A DNA stretch of 46,004 nucleotides from IMG/VR virus record IMGVR_UViG_3300002231_000750, positions 31,659-77,662 of that record, one strand, 5' to 3'. Both the position numbers and the translations under genes were made by a program. Under the pieces are notes generated by a model. It was not told where the DNA came from. It did not search any database and was given only the letters and a program-made list of their open reading frames with translations. This document shows, one piece after another, positions 3,297-25,395 of this stretch (position 1 is the stretch's first letter; the number at the start of each line of letters is the position of its first letter). Origin of the DNA: a virus.

Positions 3297-3591
3297 TCTC
3301 CTTTAAAAGTTGTGTAGCAGTAACCCCCTCACCTTTGTTCCTCAAATCATGTCAAAATATGGGCATTTAGCAATGCCCTAATCGCAGACATTTTTCTTAA
3401 AGGGAAGGGTTTTTCCTTAATTCAATATATAGTAAACGAAAGGAGGCGAAACTATAAAAAATACATTCTCTCACAAAAGAAACATGATTCTTGAAGCTTG
3501 AGTAAAGAGATTACTACTACGTTTAATAACAATAACCCACAATAGGTTATTACTACTATATATAATAAGATGATAGATTATATCATCCTAT
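3297..3591. other. Intergenic region with minus-oriented TAGTAGTAAT motifs
   Basis: No convincing gene. It contains two copies of the window-wide TAGTAGTA motif in minus orientation (near 3508 and 3551) and an inverted repeat AATAACC/GGTTATT at about 3531-3551. A TTAAAGGG/CCTTAA imperfect hairpin lies near 3397-3420. It probably holds the control region for the gene starting at 3291. Confidence 0.4.
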
Positions 3592-11523: not shown

Positions 11524-11901
11524 ATGAAGACTACACAACTAACTATTGACGACGTAAAGAAAATGTTTTCCGGCCTCAACATCATCACAATATTCACACA
11601 GTTCTTTGGGTATTCTACAAAACGAACCGTGTATTCTAAAGGTTACGAAGTAAATGACCGAAATAACCTGTGCGTTTGTCTGTGTAAAGAATACAAGGGT
11701 GACTTTTATACTTGGTTCCACATCCCAGGTTGTACTACCTGTTCTGATTCCAGCACTCTAATGAACACAGATACTATGAGGGCACTGCTCGTAAGAAGAT
11801 ATTTCTATATGTGGGTGGATGCGGAGAACGCAGCCGAACGTGAAGTTCATTGCTCTAAATGTAATGACTGTTGTCTACGCCACAGAAGACCGCGCGGGTA
11901 A
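11524..11901 (+). CDS. Hypothetical protein, probably frameshifted zinc-ribbon end
   Basis: 125 aa as read. The N-terminal 100 residues are a compact unknown domain with several cysteines (CVCLCKEY, CTTC). Near the end it reads HCSKC, half of a zinc ribbon, then a basic unstructured tail. The other half (NCPYCARLEEEAA) is encoded one frame over at 11864-11974, so a single-base frameshift near 11862 probably shortened the real protein. AAGGAG precedes the ATG. First gene of the plus block. Confidence 0.75.
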   Translation: MKTTQLTIDDVKKMFSGLNIITIFTQFFGYSTKRTVYSKGYEVNDRNNLCVCLCKEYKGDFYTWFHIPGCTTCSDSSTLMNTDTMRALLVRRYFYMWVDAENAAEREVHCSKCNDCCLRHRRPRG

Positions 11902-11974
11902 CTGCCCATACTGCGCACGTTTGGAAGAAGAAGCAGCTCTTCGAGGAGAAATGGTTGATGATGGATGGGGGTAA
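11864..11974 (+). CDS. Displaced C-terminal zinc-ribbon half of the 11524 gene
   Basis: 36 aa from the internal ATG: MTVVYATEDRAGNCPYCA and onward, ending DDGWG. With HCSKC of the overlapping frame it would make a C-x2-C / C-x2-C ribbon with normal spacing. It has no SD of its own. Either a frameshifted tail or a tiny separate gene. Confidence 0.4.
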   Translation: MTVVYATEDRAGNCPYCARLEEEAALRGEMVDDGWG

Positions 11975-11986
11975 CACCCCAGCCCT

Positions 11987-12047
11987 GGCATAGGGCGTTG
12001 TACTGTGCCCTCCTATAAGCCAGCACCATGTGGTGTTGGCTTATAAG
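11987..12047 (+). ncRNA. Double-hairpin intergenic element, copy 1
   Basis: Hairpin A: GGCATAG (11987) pairs with CTGTGCC (12003-12009). Hairpin B: TATAAGCCAGCACCA pairs with TGGTGTTGGCTTATA (12014-12045), 15 bp with one G-U. An alternative pairing GCCC/GGGC overlaps hairpin A. It begins 13 nt after the last stop and ends before the next SD. Copies occur at 12684, 19367 (A only) and 21696. Confidence 0.7.
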
Positions 12048-12093
12048 AGTATACAATAACGTCTACTCTAATACAAGGTAAGGAGGAGCGCAC

Positions 12094-12225
12094 ATGACAA
12101 AGACAATCAATGACTTAAAAGAAGAAGTAATTGAACACTACTTCTGTGGTAATCCAGAGGCCCCAATGTGGGTAGCTGACGCAGTAGAGCAGGGGGAGTT
12201 ACTCAGAGTTGAGCGTGGGGTATGA
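12094..12225 (+). CDS. Small hypothetical protein
   Basis: 43 aa: MTKTINDLKEEVIEHYF, then PMWVADAVEQGELLRVERGV. AAGGAGGAG sits 7 nt ahead of the ATG. It overlaps the next gene by 17 nt. Helical and acidic; function unknown. Confidence 0.6.
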   Translation: MTKTINDLKEEVIEHYFCGNPEAPMWVADAVEQGELLRVERGV

Positions 12226-12667
12226 TAAGAAAGCAGGTTGGGCTGGTGTATACACCCCACACCAGGAGTTTAAGAAAGAAGAGGATATAGCGTTGCTCAT
12301 CTTCGGTACAGAGCGGCATGAGGAGATTAGTGGAATCATGCTACTACACATACTGGTATTGTTGGATGCGGTTAACATTCGGATTGAAGATGGTACACAA
12401 GGAATAACTGAATGGGCATGTCCTGTTAATCAGTTTGATAACAACATTATGATAGCCATGATTCATAATGTGTGGTATTACAATGTTGAGGGCGGCCGCC
12501 ATCGAATATCATTCAAAAGACTTGAAGAAGCGTTGTTGTTTGCTGGTAAGTACGCCAACAAGGTTAGAGCCCTCGAAGAAAAGGAACAGTATGAATTGTT
12601 TGAAATCCACCGTGAAAATGAAACTAGGTTAAAGAACGCAGCAGAGCTTACAGCAGCAGAAGAATAA
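12209..12667 (+). CDS. Hypothetical protein (TTG start)
   Basis: 152 aa. TTG at 12209 is 10 nt after GGGGGAG; GTG at 12215 is the alternative, and there is no usable ATG. The N-terminal half mixes strands and helices; the C-terminal 45 residues are a charged helix (LEEKEQYELFEIHRENETR). A double-hairpin element follows 17 nt after the stop. Confidence 0.75.
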   Translation: MSVGYDKKAGWAGVYTPHQEFKKEEDIALLIFGTERHEEISGIMLLHILVLLDAVNIRIEDGTQGITEWACPVNQFDNNIMIAMIHNVWYYNVEGGRHRISFKRLEEALLFAGKYANKVRALEEKEQYELFEIHRENETRLKNAAELTAAEE

Positions 12668-12683
12668 CTATGTACAAGGCCCT

Positions 12684-12742
12684 GGCACAGGGCATCATAC
12701 TGTGCCATCCTATAAGACAGCAACATAAGTTGTTGTCTTATA
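12684..12742 (+). ncRNA. Double-hairpin intergenic element, copy 2
   Basis: Hairpin A: GGCACAG/CTGTGCC (12684-12706). Hairpin B: TATAAGACAGCAAC, ATAA, GTTGTTGTCTTATA (12711-12742). Compared with copy 1, both arms of hairpin B have changed together (GCC...GGC to GAC...GTC), so the pairing, not the sequence, is conserved. Confidence 0.7.
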
Positions 12743-12783
12743 TGATATTAACAACAATTGTACAAACCATATAAGGAGGAGAA

Positions 12784-12939
12784 GATAGAAGAAAACTAAT
12801 AAGACCTGTTAACAGTGAAGGTAAGCCATTCATTATATGCCTGACCTGTAAAGGCGCTAAGAGCGGTTGTTTTCCACAAAAGTGTCCTATAATAAACACT
12901 ATATCTAATACTAAGAACTCTAAGAAAGTATTTGAGCTC
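12784..12939 (+). other. In-frame coding extension of the 289-aa protein, start unresolved
   Basis: The frame of 12940-13809 is open back to a TAA at 12772. It encodes a zinc-knuckle-like segment: ICLTCKGAKSGCFPQKCP (around 12835-12889). A strong SD (AAGGAGGA, 12773-12780) sits at the head of this stretch, not near 12940. No ATG, GTG or TTG lies at the right distance, so the true start is either a rare codon (ATA at 12799 is in frame) or was altered. Confidence 0.55.
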
Positions 12940-13809
12940 ATGTTGATAGTTACTTTGTGTGAAGACTTTAAGTACATAGAGAAACATATAGAAAACAGCA
13001 TTTGCGCACCGTTTATGCCTGACCATGTACTTGAAGAGGAAGGGTACTGTACAAAGACACAACTGTTTGAGTTGATTTCAATGCCTGAAGAAACACCAAG
13101 GGACTTAGAACCTGATGAGGATGATGAGATTGAGGAAGAGGAGCTGCTTAACATCACTAATACTGACGGCACACCTTTGGAAGAGACAATGGTTGATATT
13201 CCTGACACTGATGATGTGGACACGGATGTTGATGTAGATAAGCTTAAGAAAGTGATAGCTGACCAACAGGATAAGCTTGATTACCTTCAACGCTCCATCG
13301 CAGAACAAGCTAAGGCAGCTCTTGACAACCAGAAACAACATCGTCCTGTGCTTGATAATGCTATAACTTGGAGTGTGCGTATTCTTTGGGTAATGGCTCT
13401 GATTGGTACCAGCTACACAACACATCTGTTAGATACAGGTAATATCCATAAGTTGTTTCCTTGGATGGAGCCCAAAGTACAGGTACAGGTGGTAGAGAAG
13501 CAGATACAGGTAAAAGAGGTTAAGACAGAGCGCTTTGTTCTACGTACAACTGGTATGTTTATGAAGTACGTAAACAAACAACACAGTGATGATATATTCG
13601 TTATGGTACAGGGTGAGAGGTTTATAGTAAATGGTACAGGTAAACGCTATAAATATGCTCAGAAGATACCTATAAACATCATGTGTAAGAAAACAGAATA
13701 TAAACCAGACTTCGTTGGTAGAAGCCCGAATAACAACAAGCTTGTTATATTGAAGGTATATACTGATGGAATCAAAATGAATTATGAATTCCCACCGGAA
13801 TTCAGGTAA
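12940..13809 (+). CDS. Transmembrane protein with acidic and coiled-coil N-terminal region
   Basis: 289 aa from the first ATG, longer if the upstream zinc-knuckle stretch belongs to it. Residues 50-100 are strongly acidic (EPDEDDEIEEEELL, DTDDVDTDVDVD). Residues 100-130 form a coiled coil. One transmembrane helix covers ~145-163. The C-terminal ~100 residues form a beta-rich domain (FVLRTTGMFMKYVNK and on). N-in topology would put a DNA- or protein-binding N-terminus in the cytoplasm and the C-terminal domain in the periplasm (inference). Confidence 0.8.
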   Translation: MLIVTLCEDFKYIEKHIENSICAPFMPDHVLEEEGYCTKTQLFELISMPEETPRDLEPDEDDEIEEEELLNITNTDGTPLEETMVDIPDTDDVDTDVDVDKLKKVIADQQDKLDYLQRSIAEQAKAALDNQKQHRPVLDNAITWSVRILWVMALIGTSYTTHLLDTGNIHKLFPWMEPKVQVQVVEKQIQVKEVKTERFVLRTTGMFMKYVNKQHSDDIFVMVQGERFIVNGTGKRYKYAQKIPINIMCKKTEYKPDFVGRSPNNNKLVILKVYTDGIKMNYEFPPEFR

Positions 13810-19056: not shown

Positions 19057-19353
19057 ATGAAAGAGTTTTGGAAAAAGAAAGTAGAATGTTACAAGAACCG
19101 CGACCCTGAACAAGTTATTATTAACGGCGAACATTACTTTGCTAGACCTGACAATGATGGCCCTGGCCCAAGAGGGCATGGTGGTAGAGAATTTATCATC
19201 ACCTTCCATGATGGAAGAGTAATAACAACCAAGAACCTGTGGAACCAGGGCACTATAGACTGTCCTGAGGCCAGAGCAATACTTCAGGATAATGCTGTGT
19301 GGGGTCCTTACCCAGAACCTGAACCATTCGACCCGGACGCAATACCGTTCTAA
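19057..19353 (+). CDS. Hypothetical protein
   Basis: 98 aa. The centre (ARPDNDGPGPRGHGGREFII, then TFHDGRVITTKNLW) is glycine-rich followed by beta strands and looks like a small beta-barrel; the end is proline and acid-rich (YPEPEPFDPDAIPF). AAAGGAGGAG precedes ATG. No family named. Confidence 0.8.
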   Translation: MKEFWKKKVECYKNRDPEQVIINGEHYFARPDNDGPGPRGHGGREFIITFHDGRVITTKNLWNQGTIDCPEARAILQDNAVWGPYPEPEPFDPDAIPF

Positions 19354-19366
19354 CTCTAACTGCCTT

Positions 19367-19389
19367 GGCACAGGGCGTTGTACTGTGCC
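19367..19389 (+). ncRNA. Hairpin A of the double-hairpin family, copy 3
   Basis: GGCACAG and CTGTGCC around GGCGTTGTA, 14 nt after the stop. Its loop is identical to copy 1. The alternative GCCT/GGGC pairing is also kept. Hairpin B is missing; an SD follows directly. Confidence 0.6.
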
Positions 19390-19567: not shown

Positions 19568-20104
19568 ATGGACACTTATTTAACACACGTATTACCACTT
19601 ACTGTAATAAGCCAACACACAGTGTACAAACCTGCTACTAATAAAGAAACAGAACCAATCAGAGGAGCACGTGCTAGTCTCATTGTCTATGCTAATTTTG
19701 GATTGTTAATAGCTTCTAAGGAAGGCAGTAGAAGCGTTGGTACTTTTTCACCTTTGGACGGAACCCATGATGGACCGCACAACCCATGTAGGGATAGTTT
19801 TATGCTTTACGCCTTCACCCCACTTGGGGTAGATATAGGCGCCGCTGAATATCTATCGAGCTTAGAGATGCGTCAGACGTTTTATACCAGCGTAAGAATT
19901 AGAACAACAAGAACTCTCATTGATGGTAAGCCAAAACTTAAACTTTTCTACATCCTTGATTACAATGAAAACAATGCTGCTATGACAAAAGAAGATTATA
20001 TAAAGTCAATCAGGCATAACAGCCCGCTCCGTGACATACCAATTCCTAAGGATAGAGATAACACACCATCAGATAAAGTTCTTAAAGCATTTTATAACAT
20101 ATAA
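19568..20104 (+). CDS. Protein related to the 296-aa SSB-like protein
   Basis: 178 aa. MDTYLT at the start and the pattern TFYTSVRIRTTRTLI, then KLFYILDY and a helix (TKEDYIKSIRHN) match MDNYLT, TFRAELRVRTKREFI and IMAGIRHYAWDG of 24406-25296. The strand pattern is compatible with an OB-fold single-strand DNA-binding core, without the long C-terminal tail of its paralogue. AAAGGAAG precedes ATG. Confidence 0.75.
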   Translation: MDTYLTHVLPLTVISQHTVYKPATNKETEPIRGARASLIVYANFGLLIASKEGSRSVGTFSPLDGTHDGPHNPCRDSFMLYAFTPLGVDIGAAEYLSSLEMRQTFYTSVRIRTTRTLIDGKPKLKLFYILDYNENNAAMTKEDYIKSIRHNSPLRDIPIPKDRDNTPSDKVLKAFYNI

Positions 20105-20133: not shown

Positions 20134-20271
20134 ATGGGGTGGAACTTAATATGGCAGATTCCACTAGGCATCGCTGTGTACCTTATTGTTGTACTGCCCT
20201 TCGCATCTATGTTAGGTAGTATTATACATAAAGGTAATAAAGATATTATTGAACACATCGATGAAGATTAA
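20134..20271 (+). CDS. Small single-pass membrane protein
   Basis: 45 aa: MGWNLIWQIPLGIAVYLIVV then an acidic cytoplasmic-type tail ending HIDED. AAAGGGGGTG precedes ATG. Function unknown. Confidence 0.65.
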   Translation: MGWNLIWQIPLGIAVYLIVVLPFASMLGSIIHKGNKDIIEHIDED

Positions 20272-20914
20272 TCTCACTTATGGGGGCTTGACTGTGTGTT
20301 GAGCCTCATGGGAGGGTTTAGCCTGACCCTTAACTCCTGCTATTCTGGCAGGGCAATCTCTACAAGAAGGAGATGGTTAAAAGTGCCGACAATTACCTCT
20401 GAGCTGTTGTTGTATTATTATTAGTGTTGTTGAAGCTAAGTCGGTACACACCACTTAACCAAAATTAGGGCATACTAAGTAAGCGAGGTACATAATTATG
20501 TGTAGGATTGATTGTGGAAGTCAGGTACAATGCTTATACTTGACCGCACCACAACATCTTTCTTCGTTATAAGAATTGATTCAACATAATAATTATCTGG
20601 CTTTTTATGTAATAGATGGGTACGGCTCCCAGTTTTTGACCCTTGACGGGAGCAAGTAGACATAGTTCGACTTGAGTAGTTAAGAGGAATGATAATGCCA
20701 AAAGGTGTGTTTAAGGCGTTAAGTAGTGGTTCTTCTCGGATTAGTTTGGCTTTTAACCTAAGCGAAGTTTCACACACAGTTGGTGTGTGGAACCCACTTG
20801 TCGGGAGACAGGCCTCTGCCAGGTGGATGACCACAGGACGGTGGCAGTCAGTGCCACGACGAATTTTAACGGTGCTTTGAATAAGCACATACATTAACTT
20901 TATAGGAGGTAAAA
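20272..20914 (+). ncRNA. Long structured leader of the 20915 gene
   Basis: 643 nt without a convincing gene but with many stems: GTGCCGAC/GTCGGTAC (20383-20447), GCTCCC/GGGAGC (20625-20653), GTTTCACACAC/GTGTGTGGAAC (20766-20792), CCACTTG/CAGGTGG (20795-20826), GTGGCA/TGCCAC (20841-20857) followed by GACGAATTTT, and GTGCTT/AAGCAC (20872-20888). A strong SD (ATAGGAGG) follows. The last part is the CACGACGAR element. Confidence 0.5.
20383..20424 (+). CDS. Possible 12-13 aa leader peptide with its start inside a stem
   Basis: GTG with AAGGAGATGG upstream encodes MPTITSELLLYYY. The GTG is the first base triplet of the 8-bp stem GTGCCGAC/GTCGGTAC closing at 20447, so ribosome entry and folding would compete. 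Speculative. Confidence 0.25.
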   Translation: MPTITSELLLYYY

Positions 20915-21367: not shown

Positions 21368-21685
21368 ATGAATCAAGAGACAAGGGTAAAGAACTTAAAA
21401 GATTTATGGAATGAGTTCTGTACAAGAGCTAACCGTAACAACAGGAAGAAGTTGTTACATCTTCGTAAGGTGTATAATGACTCTACTGCGCCAGAGGGTG
21501 TCCGGACGTATGATTTGTGGGAACAGAACCCCAACACTGGTTCGGACTGGGCATTCAAAGCGCAAGGTGGGATGGCTATTGTGTGGGTGTATGACGAGAA
21601 CCACAAATACGTAGGCCGTTTCATCAATGGACAAACCTATACCAACCTCGTACAAAACGCCAACATAACTACCAACCTTCAGTAG
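21368..21685 (+). CDS. Hypothetical protein
   Basis: 105 aa, starting 3 nt after the previous stop with AAAGGGGGT as SD. Basic helical N-terminus, then a beta domain (DWAFKAQGGMAIVWVYDENH, then YVGRFINGQTYTNLV). No family recognised. A double-hairpin element follows 10 nt after the stop. Confidence 0.8.
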   Translation: MNQETRVKNLKDLWNEFCTRANRNNRKKLLHLRKVYNDSTAPEGVRTYDLWEQNPNTGSDWAFKAQGGMAIVWVYDENHKYVGRFINGQTYTNLVQNANITTNLQ

Positions 21686-21695
21686 AAAACGGTAT

Positions 21696-21759
21696 GGCAT
21701 CAACCCCCAGTTCGGTGCCCACCTATAAACCCTGTGAGCTATGTTCGCAGGTTTATAAG
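21696..21759 (+). ncRNA. Double-hairpin intergenic element, copy 4 (divergent)
   Basis: Hairpin A: GGCATC/GGTGCC (21696-21719). Hairpin B: TATAAACCCTGTGAGC, TAT, GTTCGCAGGTTTATA (21724-21757), 15-16 bp with G-U pairs. It keeps the CCTATAA...TTATAAG frame of copies 1 and 2 with a different core. A run of eight T follows 13 nt later, so this copy could terminate. Confidence 0.6.
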
Positions 21760-21807
21760 TGTATTATAATATTTTTTTTCAAATCGTTTTTCTTCCAGAA
21801 ACTGGAC

Positions 21808-21961
21808 GAATCAAACCTTTGTAGGACAAAATTTTCAAATCAAATTCTATCCTGTATGCGTACGAATCAAACCTTTCTGTGCCAGAATTTCGAATCTCAT
21901 TTCTCTGGTCCAGAATTTTGAATCATACCTTACTATAATATAATTAGGAATCAAACCTTAA
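21808..21961 (+). repeat. GAATCAAACCTT repeats
   Basis: GAATCAAACCTT occurs at about 21808, 21862 and 21950, with degenerate copies (GAATCATACCTT, GAATCTCATTTC) and CCAGAATTTCGAATC / CCAGAATTTTGAATC between. No gene present. Possibly binding sites ahead of the 21976 leader. Confidence 0.45.
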
Positions 21962-21975
21962 AGGAGGTGATGCCT

Positions 21976-21996
21976 ATGCTGGTGTTTAACACTTAA
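21976..21996 (+). CDS. Mini-ORF MLVFNT behind a perfect SD
   Basis: AAAGGAGGTGATGCCT leads into ATG, the same leader as at 17952 and 17482. Six codons, then TAA. A TCCCCC/GGGGGA hairpin (22006-22025) and GC-rich stems follow. Confidence 0.3.
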   Translation: MLVFNT

Positions 21997-22132
21997 ACTT
22001 TGTATCCCCCATTGCGGAGGGGGAAGACCGGGCTTCGAGTGAACGGCCGTTCCGGCCTCAGCTAAACATGCCCCGTAACACGACCAGTTTACCACATCCC
22101 AGAATCGCGTATGCTACTTAGTTGAGTGAGCC

Positions 22133-22240
22133 TGAAGGCGTGGCTCGCTGGCGCTCGCGTGTTCTCGTGACCGTGTCGTGTGGCGTGGAGCGTGGGACGT
22201 GACCGTGTTTCGTGCCGTGTTTTGTGAGAATTATTAACCT
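22133..22240 (+). repeat. CGTG-rich GC island, copy A of a long repeat
   Basis: A stretch with about ten CGTG words. Its first part (22139-22173) matches 24292-24324 over a shared 21-nt block CGTGGCTCGCTGGCGCTCGC(G), then TTCTCGTGACCGTG, with a 2-nt indel between. Base composition is much richer in G and C than the flanks. It ends just before the SD of 22262. Confidence 0.55.
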
Positions 22241-22261
22241 TAACTACGGAGGACAATATTT

Positions 22262-24291: not shown

Positions 24292-24325
24292 CGTGGCTCG
24301 CTGGCGCTCGCGGTTCTCGTGACCG
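24292..24325 (+). repeat. GC-rich repeat, copy B
   Basis: Repeats the first part of 22139-22173 (see copy A) 9 nt after the 76-aa gene. It also precedes the next gene by about 80 nt. Confidence 0.55.
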
Positions 24326-24405: not shown

Positions 24406-25296
24406 ATGGACAACTATTTAACACAACGACTAGAGCTTGTATGTGCCAATCAACCAGTTTATGTACCAGGAATTCCCGGACAGAAGGGAGCAAGAGGGTA
24501 TATCAGTGTGTTCATGAATGAAGATTGGCAGCGTTCATTAAAACCCGGAGATGAAAACTATCCGGTAGCAGTGGTTATTAACGGCTTCAGCAGCATGAAC
24601 ATGGAAGCTGGTAAGACAGGCCCGGCCGAGTTCATCGCTGGTCTCAGTAAGGGACATACGTTCCGTGCTGAATTGCGTGTTCGTACCAAACGGGAGTTCA
24701 TAATCCATCCCGATACCAAACAGATCATGACAACTCCGTCAGGCGCTCAGCGTTATAACGTGGTTGAGTTCAGGTCTCTTGGGTCGTATTTCCGTTATGG
24801 AAGAGACGGGAGAAAGTTCGAAGACGAGCAGATAATGGCTGGTATTCGTCATTATGCGTGGGACGGAAAACTTCCACTGATGGCACTTCAGAACTTTCTT
24901 GTTGAAGCACAGAAGGCAGAGCCACAGGGCGGAGTTCAAACAAATCTGCTCACTGCTCTCATCAACATATGTAATGAAGGGCCGCAGCATGAGACACAGA
25001 GACGTGCGAATGATAGAGCGCCATATGTACCAGGTGCGGAAACTTTTCGCAATGCTACTGTTAAACTGCCACAGGCCAATGCTTATGCTGGTGGTGCGCA
25101 GCCCAACTTCGTTCAGCAGGTTCAGAACGCTGTTAATCCCGTCACAAATGTTCAACAGGGATTCAATCCGGTAAGTACTCAGCAGGCTGCTCCACCTACG
25201 CCTCCAGTAGTTACCAATCCTCTCACTCCGACACAAAATACACAGCAGAATGTGGCAAACGCTGCTAACGGGTTCCCGCCTGAAGGTCAGTACTAG
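24406..25296 (+). CDS. Candidate single-stranded-DNA-binding protein (OB-fold-like)
   Basis: 296 aa. Residues 1-160 hold a strand-rich core: ARGYISVFM, GHTFRAELRVRTKREFI, YNVVEFRSLGSYFRYG, then a helix (DEQIMAGIRHYAW). The last ~100 residues are a Q/N/P-rich disordered tail (TNPLTPTQNTQQNVANA), an SSB-like design but without the classical acidic tip. A shorter paralogue lies at 19568-20104. AAGGAG precedes ATG and a strong terminator follows, so it may be highly expressed. The SSB role is inference. Confidence 0.75.
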   Translation: MDNYLTQRLELVCANQPVYVPGIPGQKGARGYISVFMNEDWQRSLKPGDENYPVAVVINGFSSMNMEAGKTGPAEFIAGLSKGHTFRAELRVRTKREFIIHPDTKQIMTTPSGAQRYNVVEFRSLGSYFRYGRDGRKFEDEQIMAGIRHYAWDGKLPLMALQNFLVEAQKAEPQGGVQTNLLTALINICNEGPQHETQRRANDRAPYVPGAETFRNATVKLPQANAYAGGAQPNFVQQVQNAVNPVTNVQQGFNPVSTQQAAPPTPPVVTNPLTPTQNTQQNVANAANGFPPEGQY

Positions 25297-25343
25297 GATA
25301 CAAATCTGACATAGACAATCGTCGAAGTTAGATATAATAGGTA

Positions 25344-25395
25344 GGATAGGGCGCTTGGCATATAGGCGCTCTATCCAACCCTATTTTTTTTCTTG
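25344..25395 (+). terminator. Strong rho-independent terminator
   Basis: GGATAGGGCGC pairs over 11 bp (one G-U) with GCGCTCTATCC, then AACCCTA and T8. It lies 48 nt after the stop of the SSB-like gene and closes the 11.5-25.3 kb block. Confidence 0.85.

Follow-up and report, generated by a model that had tools for sequence, protein, structure and literature searches.

A repeated RNA element, a putative pseudoknot with a hairpin, after stop codons of one operon in a bacterial-type virus

Intercistronic hairpins that follow stop codons and segment polycistronic mRNA are represented by REP/BIME repeats and by phage RNase III hairpins, such as those of T7 early mRNA. In T4-like phages, the PeSL is a composite cassette in which an early (sigma-70-like) promoter is joined to a stem-loop. 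The T4-type gene 32 operator of T4, T2 and RB69 is an autoregulatory mRNA pseudoknot of two coaxial short stems (PMC535899; PMC3014915), and a 2010 review says that it may be the one viral example of a pseudoknot that serves in translational autoregulation (PMC3014915). The element described here resembles that operator in placing a putative pseudoknot in the intercistronic region of a phage mRNA. It differs in having four copies, each behind a stop codon and three with an added hairpin, in an unrelated sequence, in being known from sequence alone, and in that no SSB was identified in the virus. With PeSL cassettes it shares repeated stem-loops in the spacers of small ORFan genes, although here the stem-loop is a compact pseudoknot plus hairpin with no recognisable promoter in any copy. 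It has the intercistronic hairpin after stop codons in common with REP/BIME repeats and T7-type RNase III hairpins, from which it is set apart by the pseudoknot module, by its single orientation and by its detection in this virus only.

The window analysed is a stretch of 46,004 nt, corresponding to bases 31659-77662 of the 85,631-base virus record IMGVR_UViG_3300002231_000750. Its plus strand carries the element three times in full and once as a half copy, in the spacers of an operon of mostly ORFan genes (Table 1). A repeated double hairpin had been proposed at these sites in a sequence-only reading, and its sequences, coordinates and pairings proved to be as described, except that the conserved unit is longer and starts at the upstream GCCC. 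Copies 1 and 2 (82% identity across 67 nt) are similar from the first base of that GCCC (11982/12679) to ~12049/12746, where hairpin B's outer stem ends. In the full element hairpin B lies directly 3' of module A with zero linker; copy 3 is strongly diverged, and copy 4 indicates that module A can occur without hairpin B.

Table 1. Positions of the element copies, their helices and the preceding stop codons in the window.
Feature	Position	Strand	Details
TAA 5' of copy 1	11972..11974	+	ends frame from ATG 11819, no SD
Copy 1, full (module A + module B)	11982..12049	+	z -5.2
Copy 1 S1	11982..11996	+	GCCC 11982-11985 / GGGC 11993-11996; L1 = U11986
Copy 1 S2	11987..12009	+	GGCAUA 11987-11992 / UGUGCC 12004-12009; L3 11997-12003
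Copy 1 hairpin B	12010..12049	+	outer 3 bp 12010-12012/12047-12049; C12013.A12046 mismatch
Copy 1 hairpin B inner stem	12014-12027/12032-12045		14 bp; loop AUGU
TAA 5' of copy 2	12665..12667	+	end of ORF 12209-12667
Copy 2, full	12679..12746	+	z -6.8
Copy 2 S1	12679-12682/12690-12693
Copy 2 S2	12684-12689/12701-12706
Copy 2 hairpin B	12707-12746		mismatch C12710.U12743
Tandem TAA 5' of copy 4	19351..19359	+	19351-19353 and 19357-19359; ends ORF 19057-19353
Copy 4, half copy (module A only)	19362..19389	+	z -1.5 (nested hairpin)
Copy 4 S1	19362-19365/19373-19376		GCCU / GGGC
Copy 4 S2	19367-19372/19384-19389
TAG 5' of copy 3	21683..21685	+	end of ORF 21368-21685
Copy 3, diverged full element	21691..21761	+	z -4.7
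Copy 3 S1	21691-21693/21703-21705		GGU / ACC
Copy 3 S2	21696-21701/21714-21719
Copy 3 hairpin B	21720-21761		mismatch C21723.A21758; one bulge

In RNAfold, none of 200 shuffles of any full copy folded as well as the copy itself, but 16 of the 200 shuffles of the half copy did (z values in Table 1). The cleanest test is the ungapped comparison of copies 1 and 2, in which the six changed sites of hairpin B (17 bp) amount to three C-G to A-U exchanges without a broken pair; random placement of the six changes kept all pairs in 96 of 200,000 trials (P ~5e-4). The earlier reading of a structured, virus-specific RNA family with covarying stems is borne out within this one genome. Among the four copies all 91 proposed pairs stand, seven as G.U and none as A.C, in an alignment fitted to the structure with copy 3 placed by hand, so that these counts lean towards the structure. 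When copy 3 is included, ten hairpin B columns vary (eight double and two single changes) with zero broken pairs, and S2 holds one double change. A 1x1 mismatch separates the outer and inner stems of hairpin B in all three full copies (C.A, C.U and C.A). The compensatory changes and the bias of G.U over A.C favour a plus-strand RNA under selection, and the element is probably a real, compact RNA with good internal support, its four copies forming a family supported within one genome.

The same changes bear on the view that these are copies of a dispersed DNA repeat (REP/BIME-, MITE- or PeSL-like) which spreads or recombines gene cassettes, with an incidental RNA fold. Such a repeat would accord with the position of copies 1 and 2, which as direct repeats at a distance of 697 bp flank a cassette of two small ORFan genes (12094-12667), with the mixture of copy 1 and copy 2 features in copy 4, and with the presence of a second intergenic repeat family in the genome. 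However, the compensatory changes and the G.U bias point to selection on the plus-strand RNA, and all copies share one orientation. The element also lacks the sigma-70-like promoter required of PeSLs, and a PeSL mobile cassette was rejected since no copy carries a promoter-like site. An inert repeat is possible, and the dispersed-repeat explanation as a whole is considered rather unlikely.

The predicted lengths in module A (S1 4 bp, L1 1 nt, S2 6 bp, L2 0, L3 7 nt) correspond to the usual layout of H-type pseudoknots, and the gene 32 pseudoknot also has a 1-nt L1 and a 7-nt L3. The GCCC/GGGC pairing had been taken to compete with hairpin A in a two-state switch. The pairing is present, but it need not compete, because the GCCC 5' of hairpin A can pair with the GGGC at the 5' side of the loop while S2 (GGCAYA:UGUGCC) stays formed, closing a classical H-type pseudoknot. 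A switch is not the best reading, given that both pairings can coexist and that hairpin A is more stable than the isolated S1 hairpin by 2.7-6.6 kcal/mol. A rough Dirks-Pierce-type calculation puts the pseudoknot 1.2-1.9 kcal/mol below the nested hairpin. S1 and S2 can both pair in all four copies, with P values for S1 of 0.01-0.06 against shuffles, although the S1 of copy 3, of only 3 bp (GGU:ACC), is weak alone (P ~0.05). Copies 4 and 2 ranked first (29 and 28) when the genome was scanned for the module A pseudoknot only, a scan in which the number of genome hits was no higher than in shuffled sequence. Judging by this pairing potential, module A quite likely folds as an H-type pseudoknot.

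A descriptor of pseudoknot plus hairpin was run over 454 kb, made up of the genome and its related records (27 sources in all). Copies 2 and 1 came top with scores of 62 and 60, the best unrelated match scored 52, and copy 3, at 44, fell inside the unrelated background. Applied to the same 454 kb, a covariance model recovered all four copies with no other convincing match, its reverse-strand matches being a palindromic shadow of hairpin B; the additional copies in spacers that the sequence-only reading would have counted as support did not appear in the 85.6-kb genome or the related records. Nor was another copy found in eleven portal-related records, INPHARED, PLSDB or pattern scans of IMG/VR, where the few matches were all judged to be chance and none had the fold. 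A pattern search of genome contigs gave 30 matches, which as a group were put down to chance, the pattern being loose and the matches spread across unrelated phyla. With Rfam 15, the scan of the window was empty at the gathering threshold and lenient scans gave chance matches only. The element is undescribed in the libraries searched. Protein searches found no relatives of the operon genes, and the portal relatives have practically none of the window's genes, nor does the element occur in the sequence examined for them. Absence elsewhere is weak evidence, since records near the window may be missing from the collections and the relatives are partial and have only the structural module in common with this virus.

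The copies do follow stop codons, at 10-16 nt to the first hairpin rather than the 10-17 nt first claimed: the gap from stop to S2 is 12, 16 and 10 nt for copies 1, 2 and 3, and for copy 4 it is 13 nt from the first of the tandem TAAs and 7 from the second. Measured to S1, the gaps are 7, 11, 8 and 5 nt for copies 1, 2, 4 and 3, and the next Shine-Dalgarno (SD) sequence lies ~34, 27, 12 and 190 nt beyond the element in the same order. The distance to the stop varies less than that to the next SD, which favours a role tied to the upstream cistron and its 3' side, although in spacers as short as these any element would sit near a stop. Known viral recoding signals are laid out in a similar way, with an H-type pseudoknot 5-11 nt past a stop, and the element might accordingly stimulate stop-codon readthrough or frameshifting. 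However, spacing and frame relative to the element vary among copies, the products would be short and unrelated, and copy 4 follows two tandem in-frame TAAs; a recoding function is poorly supported and seems highly improbable.

Strong hairpins in spacers could also be intrinsic transcription terminators or attenuators, and TATTATAATATTTTTTTT lies 3' of copy 3, where a T8 tract occupies ~21773-21780. Yet copies 1, 2 and 4 have no T tract, a terminator scan listed none of the four copies, and a real-looking terminator, a strong hairpin with a T8 tract, is found elsewhere, at the operon end (25340-25392). Rho-independent termination, which calls for a GC-rich hairpin with a T tract immediately 3' of it, was rejected because only copy 3 is near a T run, ~12 nt past the hairpin. 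The terminator reading is therefore poorly supported and improbable.

The element might instead be bound by an RNA-binding protein of the virus, as the T4-type gene 32 pseudoknot is, and serve as its nucleation site or as a translational operator through which nearby genes are repressed. The topology is shared, with the pseudoknot 5' of a ribosome-binding site, and copy 4 is ~12 nt before an SD and ~180 nt before ORF 19568-20104. This ORF has a paralogue at 24406-25296 (BLASTP E 5e-7), and its very poor model (pLDDT 45) gave OB-fold/SSB chains among non-significant Foldseek matches. On the other hand, a T4-type operator lies upstream of the virus SSB and is bound by it, and no Pfam SSB member was found in the virus; the element keeps no constant distance to the starts downstream of it, and the genes next 3' of copies 1-3 are unlike the two paralogues. 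An operator is possible, if unlikely. Both paralogues are ORFan proteins, the longer with a Q/P-rich tail; their structure predictions are poor, and from these models they are possibly OB-fold/SSB-like.

Type III antitoxin RNAs are pseudoknots too, and a compact, repeated element could be a small decoy or anti-defence RNA (a type III toxin-antitoxin pseudo-antitoxin or a CRISPR-repeat mimic). The copies are single rather than tandem, however, without an Rfam match, and a ToxN search found none in the virus, its control giving no match either. A decoy is very unlikely.

The S1 strand begins 5-11 nt past the stop codon and would be covered by a ribosome pausing there. The pseudoknot could therefore not form before that ribosome is released, and this makes a post-termination barrier, a 3'-end protection or a processing site the best inference. 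Once the terminating ribosome leaves, the element would refold as a rigid barrier, and in the full form hairpin B would probably stack on module A to give a nearly continuous helix of ~24 bp. The barrier would mark the 3' side of the upstream cistron and protect it against 3'-to-5' degradation or scanning ribosomes, and this cistron and the next would have separate fates. A double-strand RNase of the host may also cleave the RNA within hairpin B or 3' of it; a search found no RNase III-type gene in the virus, so a host enzyme would have to cleave. A cis-acting RNA of polycistronic mRNA that protects the upstream cistron and insulates the next is the reading we put forward, tentatively and at somewhat less than even confidence.

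The virus is of bacterial type. The idea of an archaeal virus, which came from a Volactin match, is weakened by a lipobox-like lipoprotein and a signal peptide, by a U-tract terminator, and further by a portal and capsid distantly like those of Bacillus phage G. A host search with the portal, covering one class (391 genomes) and one phylum (295 genomes), gave a single weak match. At L003:12754-15437 and L004:1596-4465 of this tailed virus, intein/LAGLIDADG domains interrupt the terminase region; also found there were a protein that combines CapR, REase-like and Mom domains, and an actin homologue of Volactin-like type (E 2.6e-55).

Several other features of the genome were observed. The second intergenic repeat, GGCTCGCTGGCGCTCGCG(TG)TTCTCGTGAC, occurs in spacers at 22138-22171, 24294-24323 and L005 ~3466-3498 (G000:C1 ~80965-80998), with up to 30 nt identical and two sites close behind stop codons; as an exact pattern it was not found in IMG/VR. 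At L004:6451-6530 (G000:C1 26250-26329), two minus-strand ORFs are separated by an inverted repeat (-45.9 kcal/mol) that is very long and contains few mismatches. The long spacers 20270-20900 and 21765-22260 have little convincing coding content and no Rfam match, and the latter contains several AATCAAACCTT-like repeats (~21807-21967). The SD-led ORF 5' of copy 1 (11524-11901) stops at 11901 with GGG TAA C, where a +1 shift would read on as NCPYCARLEEEAALRGEMVDDGWG; the extension, within 11524-11974, adds a CxxC to the upstream CxxC and ends just 5' of copy 1. This continuation may represent a programmed frameshift, a natural mutation or a sequencing error. The open frame 12773-13809, 3' of copy 2, has a good SD (AAGGAGGAG) and no nearby in-frame ATG, GTG or TTG.

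More broadly, the copies might represent a hitherto undescribed modular viral RNA class, in which an H-type pseudoknot, alone or joined directly to a mismatch-bearing hairpin, stands behind stops at several operon junctions and is recognised by a factor of the virus or host that is dedicated to it, several cistrons being co-regulated through one RNA module, a proposal that we consider doubtful at present. Phage RNA pseudoknots in gene control have rarely been described. If true, a repeated, modular, stop-adjacent pseudoknot would be a second, multi-site use of phage pseudoknots in gene control, and would offer an easy reporter system for unequal gene expression in virus operons.
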